Origin: a virus
Strand: one strand, 5' to 3'
Length of the DNA stretch: 22,564 nucleotides
IMG/VR virus record: IMGVR_UViG_3300008107_000425
Span: 1 to 22,564 of that record
Shown one piece after another: positions 15,604 through 22,524 of the stretch; position 1 is the first letter of the stretch, and each line of letters opens with the position of its first letter. The notes beneath the pieces are model-generated. The model searched no databases. It was given only the letters and a program-made list of their open reading frames with translations, and was not told the origin of the DNA. Both the position numbers and the translations under genes were made by a program.

Positions 15604-18600
15604 TTAATTTCTTATTCCTGCTAATGAACCACCAAAACGTTTTTCTTTTCTAATCGTATCTAAAACAACATCATAAACTTTGCTATTCAAGCTTTGTGAC
15701 AATTCAACATCTTGTTGTGCATAACTTGTGCTATTAGCTCCAATTTCAATCTTACCATCTCTTTGTACGGTAGTATTGAAATTAAATGAATTACTAGCAT
15801 TAGTATTATTATTAATTGTGCTATTATTTCCAATTGCGCCACCATAACCAACTCCAGATGAAGCGCCACCTATTGCATAACGTTTAACTATTGGATTATC
15901 AACCAATCCACCAGTAGCATAAGCTGGAACAGTATCTGATAAACGTGAACCAATTAAACCACCAGATTGTTTTCCAAAAGGCGATCCACTAAAATCTGTT
16001 CTTAATGCTAGTTGTCCATATTCATCTCCTATTTTTTGAGGAGTACTTGGTTTATTACCAAATTTATTTACTCCAGCAGATATGCCTAAACTTACAGCAG
16101 CACCAGCTAACGATCCGATTATTCCAGCCATTTGTTGTTTTTTGGCTCTTCTCTTTTGTCTATCAGCTTCTATTTCTGCTCTTCTTTGATCTCTCAATTC
16201 ATTATATAGTTTACTTTCTTCTAAACCAAAACTAGTCATATTAGACTCCATAGAAGAAATATCATCAAAATTATTTGTAAAAGTTCCTCCCGCAGCAAAA
16301 CGAGGAGCCATAGAAAAATTCAATTTATCAAGTGAAGCTGGACCACCCATTGCCATTACCGCATTTCTATTCAATACATATTCACCATTCTCAAGTAATG
16401 CTGGATATTTATCTCCAGAACCTACTCCAGAAATATACATACCAGATTGAGCGCGAATTACTCCTCCTCTTTGTTTAGCGGCAACTGGTAAATTAGAAAC
16501 TCCAAGATTTCCTAATATTCCATAAACCGCAGATTGCATTAATGTTGTGCTTATGCTATCCAAGAAACTTGAAGCTATACCCATTAAAGCGCTTCCTAAA
16601 TTATCAGATTCTCTGATAGCGGCTTTTATTCCATTAACCAATCCATCAGCAAACATTTTTGGAAGATCTTCGCCTAAACGACCAATCATCAACTCTGATT
16701 CAGTTCTCAAGTTATCAAATCCTTTAACAACTCCATATTTAAAAGAAGTAGAGCGTTCTGCCATAATAAGCTCTTGTTTATTTAATCTATCATTCAATTC
16801 TATTTGTGTTATTTTACCTTCATTTATTTCAGTTTGAACTGTTTTAAGTTTTTCTAATGTTTTTACTCTTTGTTCTTCTTGTTTTGGATCAGCAAATTTT
16901 GTTGATTCTAAACTCGTAATGGCCTGATTCAATGAAGTTAAATCTTTGATTTCAATACCTGTATTACGTCTAGCTTTAGATCTTAGACTATCAGCTAAAA
17001 TAACATTTCCTTGACTCTGAAGTCTATCTGCATCCTTTAAAGCATTTTCATTTTGCATTTTTATTACTTCGCTATAATCTGCTTGTGTAGATTTAGAACG
17101 AGTAATTTCAGTATCTATAAGTTTTTTTTGTAAAATTTGATTTCTAAAATCAGCTTTACCTTGAGCTTTTCCTGCTACACTCATTCCAAAATAATTAGCC
17201 TCATCAGATTGTCTACGCTCTATAGCGTCTATCTCTAAATCTAATGTATTTTTTCTTTGTATTTCTAAGCGTTCTCTTTGAGCGGTTAAAGATATTTCAT
17301 CTTTAATTATATTTGATTGAAGTAAAAGAGTTGTACTTTTTAAATTTTGCAAAAGAATATCTTGATCAATTAATTTTTTTTGATCTCCATTATTTGATTT
17401 TCTTTCCGCTTCGGTGGCTTTATAAATTGCATAAGCTTCTTTTAATTGCTGTGATTCTTTAGGCTGTAGAGCGGATGGCCCACCCAAAGCAGATGATTCT
17501 GCAAAAGCTCCAACAGATTGCGATCCACTTAACAATCTTTCAAAAGGAGCAAAATTTCCTTTCAACATCTCTGCTATTGCTGGTTTTATACTTTGTTCAA
17601 TGTATGTAGGATTTTGCGAACTTTCTAATAAAGTTTTATAATTTTGTTTTACAAAATCTATATTAACTTTTCTTTGTTCATCTTCAGTTTCTCTTGCGAA
17701 TTTAGATGTTTGAGATTGCGCTTTTCTAGCTGCAATCTCTAAAGGATTTGCAACCCCTTCCATCATAGAAACTTGAAAATCATTTAAAGCATCAAGAAGT
17801 TTTTGAGAAAATTCAGATTGTTTTATCAATTGATTACCAGAAGAAATATCTTTTATAATTTGCGCTTCTAACTTATTTCTTGTAGAATATAATGAGGCAA
17901 GAGCTTTTGCTTGTTGAACAGCTTGTTTAGTTGCATTATCACTGCTACTAATTGTATTTATTATGTCAGGCAAAGTTCCTTCTAATAAAGCTTTAGTTAA
18001 AGATTCTTGAACAGTCTCTATTTCAGCAGCTGTAGCCTTACCTCCTAATTGTTTTTCTGCAATTTGTTTGGCTATACTTTTAGCTTGGTCAACTGACGCT
18101 TGCGAAACAACATCTATTTCTTGCATAAAAACACCACCAACTCCCGCAGATCTTGGAACTTTAACTCTTTCAGTTCCTTTTTTATAGCTTTGTAATTGTT
18201 TAAGCTGCTCTTGATTTAATCCTAAATTAGCTAAAGCTTTTCCAGCAACAGCTTTTTGTAGTCCGCTTTCTATTTTACCACCTTTAATCAAAGTTGCAAA
18301 TTCTAAACCAGATGTTAGTTTTTTCTGCTCTTGTTCAAAATTTCCCAAAACAGAATTTAAAGCTTCAACTCCGCCTTTTGTTTTAGATAGTTCTTCTGCT
18401 AATTTAACATCTTTTATGTCGTTAAAAGAATTAGTTAAATTTCTACTAGCGTTTTCCAATTGAGTTGATGAAGCTCCAGAAGCCAAAAGTTTAGCGTATT
18501 CTTCTTGAGCTTGAATGTATTTTTGACCAGCACTCAAATTTTCTTGAGTTTTACTCTTTTGTTCATCTGTTAATTGAGTTAATTCTTCAACGCTTAGAGA

Positions 18601-21600
18601 AGAAGCTTGAACAGCAGAAGTTAATCCTATTAAACTTCCAATTAAACCTCCTACTACTGCACCGGGAATTCCCGCTACTGCACCTCCTATTCCCGCGCCT
18701 GTTGAAACTGAACTTAAACCAGTACTTAATCCACTTTGCAAACTTCTTTCCGTAGAAGTCATTTCAGTTCGTTTTTTATTTCCAAAGTAAGCTTGCTCTA
18801 TAAAACCAGCCAACAATGGGCCTCCAATCGATATGGCAGTACCTGCTCCTTGCAATGTTCGGGAAAGCGCTGTAAGTCTAGAAGTTCCTCCTCCAGATCC
18901 TCCTTGCGTTTGATTAGCAACTGTTTGATTAAAATTGTTAGCCGATGCTTGAACTTTCGATATTCCAGAATTTAATGCTATTTTAGCTTTTTGAGACCCT
19001 TGCTCTACAACATCTGCAAAAGAAGCAGCAAAAACACTAACATAATCATAAGCATATTTTATTTTATTAACAATATCTTGACCAATTTTTTCTGTTTCAG
19101 CTTGTAATTGATTAGGATCAAAACCTGATTGAGTATTTTGAGATTGATTTCCAGCTTTATTTTTCGCAATTTTATTTTTTGTAGATTTAAGATTTCCAAA
19201 ATTAGGAATAAATCCTTTACTCATCAATCCAGCAGCTTTTTGCCCTCTCATTGAATCGCTCAATGCATTACCTAAACCACCATGATCAGCAATCGCGGAA
19301 CTAAATGTTGGTTGACTGCTATTTCTAATATGAGGGAAAGGCTTTGTATCGAAAATGGCCTTGTTGCCGCTCATGCTTTCTTCTAAACCCATTACTGCTT
19401 GTTTATATGCAAAGTTAGGAATAAAACCTTTTGCAGCAGCCATTGACAAAAATGCAGGATTTTTTACATAACTGTTTAATAAATTATTTGTTTCTGCGGA
19501 TAATCCTTTTACAAGATCAGGACTACTTTTAGCCATTTGAGAATAGCTTGTTCCTGCAAGTTGAGAAAAAGTTTTTCCAAATGCGGAAGGCAATTGATTC
19601 TCATGTCCTAATTCATTAAATGTAATTATTGATTCTTTTATTTTAGCTGCACCAGCAGGATTAGCTTTGGCAAATCGTTCGTATTTGTCATTTAAATTTC
19701 CCGAAATAGAACCAGTTAAATTTGCTTTTGGAAAACCTTTGTATTCAAGAGCTATGTCTCCTAAAAACGCATCAAATGCTGATTGTTTTTGATCTGTTCC
19801 AGGTTGCAAGGCATAACCCCTAATCAACTGATCTTTAATTTTTGATTGGGAAACTAATTGCATCGCTTTAAATACAAAATCCTCATACAATGGAGCGAAA
19901 ATATTATTATCTCCAACCTTATCTGCACCTTTAGCACTACTTCTAAAATTAACTTGTCTAAAAGTATCTACGTCACTTGCTTTAGATATTCCCAAAGCAG
20001 GTTGAATAGCATCAAAAGCAGGATTGCCAAATTTTTTAAACCAAGGAACTCTTATTGCACTAGTAGGAGGAGCAAAATTAGGAATAAAGCCAGAACCATA
20101 TACTTTATCTTGAGCAAATTGCATTGTTATTTTTCTTTTCAAAATATTTTTTTTCTCTGAATCTGGTAAACCATTTAATAAATTATTTTTAGCTGTAGTT
20201 TTTAAACTAGAAATTAATGAAGTTTGCGTAACTCTAGAAGAATCAGAACCATCACCTATTATTTCTGTATAATAAGGTCTTATAAATAAATCGCCAAGAA
20301 GCCCTTCATTTGAAATTAAAGATGATTTATCATTTAATTTTATTCTTCTTGATGATGATCCTTGTTTTGGCAAATAACCATAATAATTTTCCCCTAAATG
20401 ATTAATTATTTTACTTATATTTTGAGAAGCTGTATGACCATAACCAGCATGAGCATCAGCAAATGAATTTGATTTATAAAGCCTTGGATTAAAACCTTTA
20501 TTAATGGGCTTAAATCTAACTTCATTAAAATCTATTGCTGCATTATAAGCAGGAGAAACTCCAATATCATTTCCGACACTAGCTTCAAAACCTCTACCAA
20601 TAGCAAATTGATCTATTTTTTTGATAGCAAAATTCGGAATAAATCCATTAAACATATATGGATCAACACCTGTTCTGCTTATAGCATTTTGTCTATGAGC
20701 GCGACCAGCTTTTGATGCAGCAGGAGGATTAATAAAAGGTTGAGCAAAACCGGGAATATATTTTACATCTTCCGCAGTATTCATTACCCCACCAACAGGA
20801 GACGAAACAACTCTGCCGGGAGTATATCCACCAGCTTGTGCGCCAACAACTTCCGCCATTCTTGTCGCATTTGGAATATATCCTCCTGCGCGAGTAACTT
20901 GCAATCCACCAGATCCTTTTACTCTTACTCCTTGATTAGCTAATTGAGAAGCAAGTTGTTTAGCAAGAGTTGACTGCATTTGATATTCTGCTGTCTGCTG
21001 TCTAGCTATTTGAAGCAATAATTGCGCCTGTGCAGCTTGATTACCCATTAGCCCAGCAAGAGCTTGTGATGCTGGCCCTTGTTGTTGCATAATTTGCAAA
21101 ATAGATTGTTCAATATTTTTTCTATTTTGCGTTTCTGTAGTAATACCAGCAATCTGAGGCAAAGCCTGACTAAGATAAGTAAAAGAATTTTGTATTAATT
21201 TAAAAAGCGTAAAAAAAGCTGCGATAGCACCGGGACCAGCTATTACATTACGAATACCTTTTAATAAACCATTTGCAAAACTAGAACCAACCCCTTCTCC
21301 CTCAAGAACTTCATTCATGCTTTCAACGAATGACTTTAACTGTTCTGTACCATATTTAGCTAATGGTTCAAATGTTACTTTACCAATATTATTTGCTAGT
21401 TGCTGAGTTGAAGTGGCTGTTTGCTTTAATAAAGCATCTAAAGTTTGATTTAATTTTGCAGTAGCGATTTCAGCTTCATTTGTAGCCGCCGCTCCTCTTT
21501 GTAAAGCTCCAGCATATGTGCCTTGCGTCTTATTTAAATCGTTAACAATAGCTTTTAAAATGTTAACTTGATAAACACCTGCAACTTGCTCTGATAATTG

Positions 21601-22524
21601 CGCTCTTTGAGCGTCTGCTAGACCTTTATAAGCACCAGCGAAATTTTGTAATATTTGAACTGCTGGTAAAATATTTCCTTCAACATCTCTAACAGCAATA
21701 TTAAAAGCTTCTAATTGATCTAGAGTCTCAGTACGTTGCAAACGAGTGAAAATTGTTTTTAATGCGTTACCAATTACCGCTCCACCTCTTGCAGTGCTTT
21801 GTTGTGCAGAAGTAACTAATGCGTTTAACTGATCAAGGCTAACACCTGCTTCTTGCGCTGCTTGTCCAGTACGAGACAAAGCTTCAGCCAAATCGCCAGC
21901 ACCTACAGCGTAATCTTGTTCAACTGCAACTAGCTTATTTAATATTTGAGTTGTAGTTACTCCAGTTATAGCAAATCCATTTACAGTAGAAGTCAATGCA
22001 TCAACAGCATTTGCAGTACTAATTCCCGCTAATCTTGTTAATGTTAAAGCGTCTTTTGTTCTTTGTAGAGTTTCTTCAGCTTTTAAACCTTGACGAGAAA
22101 ATTCTAAAGCCGCTTTAGAAGCATCATCAAAAGAAGAAGCTGTTTGTTTGCTTACGCTAAATAATTCTGTACTAAATTTTTGCAACTGACTTGTGGTTAA
22201 TCCGAATACACGATTAATATCTGCAAGATTTTTTTCTACATCAATAGTTACATTAGCTAACTCTTTAAAACTACGAATAACACCACCAAGAACAGCAGTA
22301 GAAGCTCCGAATGCAATAACGCGAGCATTAGAAGCTGCGAGTGCTGCTTCGAAGTCTTTAACATCGCCCGTCATTCTGCCAAGAGGCTGAGAGAAAGCTC
22401 GTTGATTAACAGTTAGATTAAGTTGATTATTCTGAGCGAATCTTTGATTATACGCTTGAACACCAGCTTGAATAGAAGCGGTTAATGCTGCTTGATTGGC
22501 TGCGACATTAATTTGAACTGCCAT
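15604..22524 (-). CDS. Tail tape measure protein (TP901/PhageMin_Tail-type N-domain), 2306 aa
   Basis: This protein fixes tail length and probably assists DNA passage. Residues ~75-330 form a TP901-type tape measure domain (VEKNLADINRVFGLTTSQLQ, LEFSRQGLKAEETLQRTKDA, RGGAVIGNALKTIFTRLQ). Hydrophobic stretches follow at about 424-447 and 1228-1250, and a glycine-zipper-like one at about 1269-1302 (GIGGAVAGIPGAVVGGLIGS). Residues ~1300-1950 are largely helical or coiled-coil. The C-terminus carries GVGSGDKYPALLENGEYVLN (about 2020-2045), a common tape measure element, and ends KEKRFGGSLAGIRN. The middle (about 547-1110) is odd: four GFIPNF(A/G) heptapeptides at 627, 812, 1033 and 1104 bound non-helical inserts, two of them nuclease-like. 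No lysozyme or peptidase motif was recognised. At 1.5 angstrom per residue the full length would span about 346 nm. The start ATG at 22522-22524 follows AAATAAGAAAT. Confidence 0.93.
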   Translation of the reverse strand: MAVQINVAANQAALTASIQAGVQAYNQRFAQNNQLNLTVNQRAFSQPLGRMTGDVKDFEAALAASNARVIAFGASTAVLGGVIRSFKELANVTIDVEKNLADINRVFGLTTSQLQKFSTELFSVSKQTASSFDDASKAALEFSRQGLKAEETLQRTKDALTLTRLAGISTANAVDALTSTVNGFAITGVTTTQILNKLVAVEQDYAVGAGDLAEALSRTGQAAQEAGVSLDQLNALVTSAQQSTARGGAVIGNALKTIFTRLQRTETLDQLEAFNIAVRDVEGNILPAVQILQNFAGAYKGLADAQRAQLSEQVAGVYQVNILKAIVNDLNKTQGTYAGALQRGAAATNEAEIATAKLNQTLDALLKQTATSTQQLANNIGKVTFEPLAKYGTEQLKSFVESMNEVLEGEGVGSSFANGLLKGIRNVIAGPGAIAAFFTLFKLIQNSFTYLSQALPQIAGITTETQNRKNIEQSILQIMQQQGPASQALAGLMGNQAAQAQLLLQIARQQTAEYQMQSTLAKQLASQLANQGVRVKGSGGLQVTRAGGYIPNATRMAEVVGAQAGGYTPGRVVSSPVGGVMNTAEDVKYIPGFAQPFINPPAASKAGRAHRQNAISRTGVDPYMFNGFIPNFAIKKIDQFAIGRGFEASVGNDIGVSPAYNAAIDFNEVRFKPINKGFNPRLYKSNSFADAHAGYGHTASQNISKIINHLGENYYGYLPKQGSSSRRIKLNDKSSLISNEGLLGDLFIRPYYTEIIGDGSDSSRVTQTSLISSLKTTAKNNLLNGLPDSEKKNILKRKITMQFAQDKVYGSGFIPNFAPPTSAIRVPWFKKFGNPAFDAIQPALGISKASDVDTFRQVNFRSSAKGADKVGDNNIFAPLYEDFVFKAMQLVSQSKIKDQLIRGYALQPGTDQKQSAFDAFLGDIALEYKGFPKANLTGSISGNLNDKYERFAKANPAGAAKIKESIITFNELGHENQLPSAFGKTFSQLAGTSYSQMAKSSPDLVKGLSAETNNLLNSYVKNPAFLSMAAAKGFIPNFAYKQAVMGLEESMSGNKAIFDTKPFPHIRNSSQPTFSSAIADHGGLGNALSDSMRGQKAAGLMSKGFIPNFGNLKSTKNKIAKNKAGNQSQNTQSGFDPNQLQAETEKIGQDIVNKIKYAYDYVSVFAASFADVVEQGSQKAKIALNSGISKVQASANNFNQTVANQTQGGSGGGTSRLTALSRTLQGAGTAISIGGPLLAGFIEQAYFGNKKRTEMTSTERSLQSGLSTGLSSVSTGAGIGGAVAGIPGAVVGGLIGSLIGLTSAVQASSLSVEELTQLTDEQKSKTQENLSAGQKYIQAQEEYAKLLASGASSTQLENASRNLTNSFNDIKDVKLAEELSKTKGGVEALNSVLGNFEQEQKKLTSGLEFATLIKGGKIESGLQKAVAGKALANLGLNQEQLKQLQSYKKGTERVKVPRSAGVGGVFMQEIDVVSQASVDQAKSIAKQIAEKQLGGKATAAEIETVQESLTKALLEGTLPDIINTISSSDNATKQAVQQAKALASLYSTRNKLEAQIIKDISSGNQLIKQSEFSQKLLDALNDFQVSMMEGVANPLEIAARKAQSQTSKFARETEDEQRKVNIDFVKQNYKTLLESSQNPTYIEQSIKPAIAEMLKGNFAPFERLLSGSQSVGAFAESSALGGPSALQPKESQQLKEAYAIYKATEAERKSNNGDQKKLIDQDILLQNLKSTTLLLQSNIIKDEISLTAQRERLEIQRKNTLDLEIDAIERRQSDEANYFGMSVAGKAQGKADFRNQILQKKLIDTEITRSKSTQADYSEVIKMQNENALKDADRLQSQGNVILADSLRSKARRNTGIEIKDLTSLNQAITSLESTKFADPKQEEQRVKTLEKLKTVQTEINEGKITQIELNDRLNKQELIMAERSTSFKYGVVKGFDNLRTESELMIGRLGEDLPKMFADGLVNGIKAAIRESDNLGSALMGIASSFLDSISTTLMQSAVYGILGNLGVSNLPVAAKQRGGVIRAQSGMYISGVGSGDKYPALLENGEYVLNRNAVMAMGGPASLDKLNFSMAPRFAAGGTFTNNFDDISSMESNMTSFGLEESKLYNELRDQRRAEIEADRQKRRAKKQQMAGIIGSLAGAAVSLGISAGVNKFGNKPSTPQKIGDEYGQLALRTDFSGSPFGKQSGGLIGSRLSDTVPAYATGGLVDNPIVKRYAIGGASSGVGYGGAIGNNSTINNNTNASNSFNFNTTVQRDGKIEIGANSTSYAQQDVELSQSLNSKVYDVVLDTIRKEKRFGGSLAGIRN
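19600..19893 (-). other. PD-(D/E)XK nuclease-like insert inside the tape measure protein
   Basis: Residues about 878-975, inside the spacer between the second and third GFIPNFA motifs, read LYEDFVFKAMQLVSQ (E881 in a predicted first helix), then QSAFDAFLGDIALEYKGF with D918, D923, E927 and K929. A helix glutamate, a following acidic residue, and an E-x-K on the next predicted strand, then a helix-rich tail, are the order expected for the restriction-endonuclease-like fold. This is a fold-level reading by eye. Chance occurrence of E-x-K is easy, so the call depends on structure prediction. Confidence 0.45.
20092..20625 (-). other. Second globular insert in the tape measure protein, possibly a decayed nuclease-like domain
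   Basis: This covers residues 634-811, between the first and second GFIPNFA motifs. It begins GRGFEASVGNDIG (E647), then AYNAAIDFNEVRFK (D665), then NSFADAHAGYGHTASQNISK with D690-A-H692 where a D-x-K would be expected. The spacing resembles that in the neighbouring insert, suggesting a related fold with the lysine replaced by histidine. About 110 further residues, including IRPYYTEIIGDG and LPDSEKKNILKRKI, are unrecognised. Confidence 0.35.

Follow-up and report, generated by a model that had tools for sequence, protein, structure and literature searches.

Introduction

Tape measure proteins of phage tails are usually regarded as rulers and membrane conduits. They are also cargo that the tail tube ejects (PMC13277306), and they make contact with the site of entry at the inner membrane while the genome is being injected (PMC13190303). 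Tape-measure-like proteins of contractile injection systems, Tme and Sle1, serve as ejected effectors (PMC11126660, PMC13277306). Glycine zippers, without which the T6SS DNase Tde1 is not translocated, also occur in tape measures (PMC10240207). The polyvalent proteins of phages and conjugative elements (Iyer et al. 2017, PMC5512222) are thought to be delivered with DNA and have been proposed to be cut apart on deployment. Among delivered nucleases, PoNe is described as a T6SS effector with PD-(D/E)XK DNase activity (PMC6688995). PD-(D/E)XK nucleases, polyvalent proteins and tape-measure-derived effectors are each already known (PMC5512222, PMC11126660, PMC13277306). Lastly, a 2023 survey of protein shuffling in phages was unable to establish genuine recent mosaicism for tape measures (PMC10684548).

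The window analysed here comes from an uncultured virus and is a fragment of 22,564 bases. The original prediction placed a nuclease-like PD-(D/E)XK signature inside a tail tape measure protein encoded in this fragment, and raised the possibility of a delivered effector within a structural gene.

Results

The tape measure gene and its cassette

The gene product is a tail tape measure, as had been predicted: scans of the 2306-aa protein matched PF10145 at aa 124-316 (E 1e-27) and PHROG 4211 (tape measure; E 9e-48). Downstream of the gene lies a lambda-like tail set of tube-like, gpM-, gpL-, gpK/JAB-, gpI- and gpJ-like proteins, and the Pfam families found among the neighbours are Phage_tail_L, JAB, ThiS, Phage_min_tail and Phage-tail_3. 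The window has both the tape-measure N-terminal domain and a lambda-like tail gene cluster, and the carrier phage is an uncultured lambda-like siphovirus.

A recurring heptapeptide, GFIPNFA, partitions aa 550-1110 of the tape measure into modules (Table 1). In 558 motif contexts from related proteins, where G, P, N and F are fixed by the search definition, F alternates with Y and I with V, A comes next in 407, and A or S precede. The borders of the motif are sharp in these contexts, with nothing conserved further out. Its codons vary freely, all synonymous codons being used, and because codon choice is free the constraint on GFIPNFA is placed on protein and not on DNA. A processing or docking site is one possible role.

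Two pattern scans of viral contigs recovered at least 119 and at least 120 stretches with motifs of this type, most of them in tape-measure-like frames. The pieces bounded by motifs comprise at least 462 distinct modules, grouped under at least 153 representatives. Relatives that are 88-97% identical to the window's protein over aa 1-540 diverge abruptly inside the cassette. For example, the identity of one relative (L003) drops to 24% in M1, against 89% and 98% in the parts on either side, and another (L267) is 97% identical over the N-terminus and only 30% in M2; where modules are replaced, the flanks are in general 90-99% identical. The number of modules after M2 varies, with cassettes of 477 to 1063 aa, and the M2 slot is nearly always filled within the window's lineage. 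GFIPNFA motifs thus delimit a hypervariable cassette of exchangeable modules in the tape measures of many viral contigs.

Table 1. Features of the tape measure gene in the window (core elements and module folds are predictions)
Feature	Coordinates	Strand	Basis
Tail tape measure protein gene (2306 aa, without cysteine)	15604..22524	-	PF10145, PHROG 4211, Cys count
Degenerate GYIPNAT motif (aa 548-554)	20863..20883	-	translation
GFIPNFA motif (aa 627-633)	20626..20646	-	translation
Module M1 (aa 627-811), restriction-endonuclease-like	20092..20646	-	family alignment; slot replaced in relatives
GFIPNFA motif (aa 812-818)	20071..20091	-	translation
Module M2 (aa 812-1032), predicted PD-(D/E)XK-fold domain	19429..20091	-	AF2 model and family alignment
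Core helix 1 (aa 873-892), carries E881	19849..19908	-	DSSP on AF2 model
E881 codon, invariant 28/28	19882..19884	-	translation, alignment
Core strand 1 (aa 900-902)	19819..19827	-	DSSP on AF2 model
D918 codon, invariant 28/28	19771..19773	-	translation, alignment
Core strand 2 (aa 919-921)	19762..19770	-	DSSP on AF2 model
Core strand 3 (aa 924-929), carries E927-x-K929	19738..19755	-	DSSP on AF2 model
E927 codon; E, D or Q in relatives	19744..19746	-	alignment
K929 codon, invariant 28/28	19738..19740	-	alignment
Core helix 2 (aa 940-954)	19663..19707	-	DSSP on AF2 model
Core strand 4 (aa 964-969)	19618..19635	-	DSSP on AF2 model
GFIPNFA motif (aa 1033-1039)	19408..19428	-	translation
Module M3 (aa 1033-1103), conserved 71-aa last module	19216..19428	-	90-100% identity in relatives
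GFIPNFG motif (aa 1104-1110)	19195..19215	-	translation
Glycine-zipper hydrophobic segment (aa 1279-1299), predicted membrane segment	18628..18690	-	hydropathy

Conservation of the PD-(D/E)XK signature in M2

The segment singled out by the original prediction, 19600-19893, is the core of M2, the second full module of the cassette. The residues are exactly those that had been named: E881 in YEDFVF, D918 in FDAF, and E927 and K929 in ALEYKGF, with codons starting at 19884, 19773, 19746 and 19740. A bare PD-(D/E)XK pattern occurs at about the rate expected by chance; a loose signature is found in about 27% of control segments (250 aa each, taken from non-cassette tape-measure sequence), and elsewhere in this tape measure a spacing regex has further hits, beginning at residues 1806, 2045 and 2048. 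With matches in 27% of controls, the loose regex was uninformative as evidence for a nuclease and was set aside.

Conservation is a different kind of evidence, since E881, D918, E927 and K929 had been picked before any alignment existed. M2 is encoded by 21 viral loci at 65-98% identity, and remote members searched back recover the window's M2 family with tblastn E values, relative to the candidate stretches only, that reach 1e-15 and lower. All 25 true family members keep E881, D918 and K929 unchanged, and position 927 is E or D and once Q (in relative L276). The spacing between D918 and E927 differs across the family through indels, yet position 927 stays E, D or Q. Addition of three remote modules (L219, L047 and L134; 20-22% identity) gives a 28-row alignment with identity down to about 20%, in which five of 222 columns are invariant, three of them E881, D918 and K929 (hypergeometric P about 6e-6 for named residues among invariant columns). 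The three added rows may owe their register to the aligner, and the 25-row result holds without them. The top non-family module by hhalign was L219, with motifs in register and a probability of only 37%, in a comparison run after removal of GFIPNFA, a shared anchor.

Because residues named before the alignment turn out to be conserved, the signature stands above chance, and we conclude that the PD-(D/E)XK signature in M2 is real. The original prediction had turned in part on conservation in homologues, and this was borne out: D918 and K929 are present in 28 of 28 rows, with E, D or Q at position 927. Among closer relatives M2 is under purifying selection (dN/dS 0.05-0.32).

Predicted fold and structural matches

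AlphaFold2 run on the 28 diverse rows gave a best model with pLDDT 89.8 and pTM 0.89, and all five models had pLDDT of 86.8-89.8. The alpha-beta-beta-beta-alpha-beta core expected of a restriction-endonuclease-like domain is present in the best model, with elements H62-81, E89-91, E108-110, E113-118, H129-143 and E153-158 in model numbering. In the same numbering E881, D918, E927 and K929 are positions 70, 107, 116 and 118; the model places E881 on helix 1, D918 at the start of strand 2 and E927-x-K929 on strand 3. A model built from 19 close relatives only was helical, with pLDDT 45, and was disregarded.

Structure searches with the M2 model gave a mixed answer. Foldseek returned nothing significant. 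VIA-align returned matches with Z of at most 4.8, each weak individually. About 46 of its 50 best PDB entries are what we take to be domains of the PD-(D/E)XK fold. They represent some 17 different families and include R2 endonuclease, cap-snatching endonucleases, Card1, EcoT38I, AvaII, Hjc, VRR-NUC, TnsA, HincII and XisH. When a low-confidence model of the same domain was used, none of 17 VIA-align matches was PD-(D/E)XK. The anticipated resemblance to known PD-(D/E)XK structures was therefore seen by VIA-align, with Z below 5, but not by Foldseek. Comparison of M2 and M1 with Pfam, PHROGs and PDB sequence profiles matched no relative and no known nuclease. The PD-(D/E)XK interpretation is upheld as far as the order of core elements in the AlphaFold2 model and the conservation of E881, D918, E927 and K929 carry it, and M2 is best read, from this model, as an independently folding domain of PD-(D/E)XK nuclease type.

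In about 15 distinct relatives, the neighbouring module M1 has FE ... DF features, and D-x-H or D-x-E with a conserved G-x-G-H where D-x-K would be expected. This pattern suggests a variant or altered active site.

Modules in related tape measures

A strict PD-(D/E)XK signature was found in 15 of 129 module families other than M2, among the matches listed; 0.4 were expected, no more than 2 were seen in any of 200 shuffles, and the rate in control segments was 0.5%. Among the matches listed, cassette modules matched staphylococcal nuclease (SNase; 2e-9) and GNAT (7e-5). A further GNAT match (2e-5) is above the curated cut-off; in Pfam, module L139:9914-10342 matched GNAT and L080:5309-7726 matched GHKL ATPase (HATPase; 5e-5). 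This class of tape measures thus carries several unrelated enzyme folds (SNase, GNAT, GHKL ATPase and PD-(D/E)XK), and the window itself has M2 and the restriction-endonuclease-like M1.

Several other modules drew attention by eye only: one nuclease-like (L045:3278-3910), one kinase-like (L086:2604-3200), one with an HExxH string (L044:3242-3850) and one ADP-ribosyltransferase-like (L079:7921-8568). For some relatives' modules, identities seen by eye as protein kinase, ADP-ribosyltransferase, HAD or metallopeptidase were not confirmed by Pfam and carry no weight in the interpretation. HExxH-like strings occur in some relatives' modules with no Pfam peptidase match, and none was recognised in the window.

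At the sensitivity of tblastn, M2, the L219 core and two other module families had no match in cultured phages, and a tblastn search of plasmids with L153, a module homologous to M2, found no match. A scan of bacterial genomes with M2 gave one match, on a 4-kb MAG contig.

Membrane segment and cysteine content

Each of the 13 tape measures checked in the family has the glycine-zipper segment shortly after the cassette, on its C-terminal side; this glycine-rich hydrophobic stretch lies about 160-220 aa beyond the last motif. Cysteine is absent from the 2306 aa of the window's tape measure and occurs 42 times in the 5217 residues of the window's other tail proteins. Lambda, SPbeta, phiL47 and vB_BcoS-136 likewise have tape measures that lack cysteine, and the PokyPuppy tape measure contains a single one. 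Among the matches listed, the 153 module representatives have 2 cysteines in 41,483 residues. Because the modules follow the same cysteine-free composition rule as their carriers, we suspect that they are long-standing parts of tape measures and travel with them.

Discussion

We think it fairly probable that the tape measure carries M2 as a nuclease effector, one cassette among the exchangeable modules that GFIPNFA motifs separate. The combination of exchangeable enzyme modules, a glycine zipper and cysteine-free modules makes delivery more plausible. M2 may well be catalytically competent. It would pass through the tail tube as part of the tape measure, free of cysteine and probably unfolded or loosely folded. 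Upon infection, the tape measure would put its glycine-zipper segment into the inner membrane, and the modules N-terminal of it would enter the cytoplasm, perhaps after cleavage at GFIPNFA had released them. The nuclease could then cut nucleic acid of the host, of plasmids or of rival phages as infection begins. An arms race with factors of the host or of competitors might underlie the diversity of modules, much as in polyvalent and polymorphic toxin proteins. We extend this only tentatively to the whole group: the GFIPNFA tape measures of a large class of uncultured siphoviruses could be polymorphic effector carriers, with the motifs as recognition or processing sites and with interchangeable payloads of nucleases, acetyltransferases and ATPases that leave the virion along with the genome and are set free in the host.

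It is also conceivable, although unlikely, that M2 keeps the PD-(D/E)XK fold as a structural or nucleic-acid-binding element, for example one that guides the genome end, and does not cut. M2 does sit in a structural protein, its neighbour M1 has lost the lysine, and one relative (L276) has Q in place of E927. However, the catalytic residues are the most conserved positions across sequences of about 20-30% identity, and [DE]-x-K recurs in many other module families. Moreover, the SNase, GNAT and GHKL ATPase modules in other slots have no structural rationale.

We give little credence to the idea that the nuclease acts in the producing cell, where a tape measure made late would cut host or competitor DNA or process phage DNA during assembly. 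An infected cell makes many copies of the tape measure, and the present results do not separate action in the producer from action in the recipient. Nevertheless, fusion to an assembly-bound protein that fills the tube is a poor route to activity in the producer, and the many different modules at equivalent positions also argue against it.

Slightly more improbable still is a selfish or homing-type nuclease that spreads between tape-measure genes, with the DNA that encodes GFIPNFA as its insertion or recombination site. The clean exchange of modules between near-identical flanks would fit such an element, and homing and VSR-type endonucleases were among the weak Foldseek matches. However, many modules in the same slots are not nucleases, and the M2 slot is nearly always filled in the lineage rather than present in some members and absent from others. 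Preservation of GFIPNFA as protein, with every synonymous codon in use, argues against a DNA target.

Lastly, a chance motif within an ordinary helical tape-measure segment, which the frequency of loose signatures in control segments and the helical model from close relatives might favour, is very improbable and strongly disfavoured by the conservation, the high-confidence alpha/beta model and the structural neighbours.

If M2 is indeed a delivered nuclease, the presence of this fold in an exchangeable cassette would turn the tape measure into a vehicle that brings in effectors at entry. One polypeptide would then serve both tail structure and effector delivery, and such phages may inject a menu of enzymes with their DNA. 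The cassettes could offer a route to new anti-host, anti-plasmid and anti-phage enzymes, and they bear on how folded enzyme domains pass through a narrow tail tube. Cassette exchange also provides clean cases of tape-measure mosaicism, to be compared with the survey cited above (PMC10684548). In the open-access journal literature searched we found no description of a motif-delimited hypervariable enzyme cassette in phage tape measures and no paper on the peptide GFIPNFA.

Each of the described systems shares some properties with this locus and differs in others. M2 resembles the PD-(D/E)XK superfamily in its predicted alpha-beta-beta-beta-alpha-beta core, with E on helix 1 and D followed by (D/E)xK. 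In contrast to members of that superfamily, it has no detectable sequence relation to any Pfam family and sits inside a tail structural protein. Enzyme domains within tape measures have a precedent in YomI of SPbeta, whose homologues are annotated as transglycosylases; enzymes of the YomI type have cell-wall targets, whereas here there is a predicted nuclease fold in a hypervariable cassette. Tme and Sle1 have helical or membrane domains, unlike the enzyme modules of this phage tape measure. Polymorphic toxins and T6SS PD-(D/E)XK DNases such as PoNe are delivered effectors with swappable toxin modules, to which the exchangeable modules and the predicted PD-(D/E)XK fold of M2 correspond, but the cassette does not follow a layout in which the toxin is C-terminal only. 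Similarly, polyvalent proteins combine several unrelated enzyme domains on one long polypeptide (PMC5512222), and the cassette does the same. The carrier here, however, is a tape measure, none of which is mentioned in that work, and a fixed GFIPNFA motif stands between the modules.
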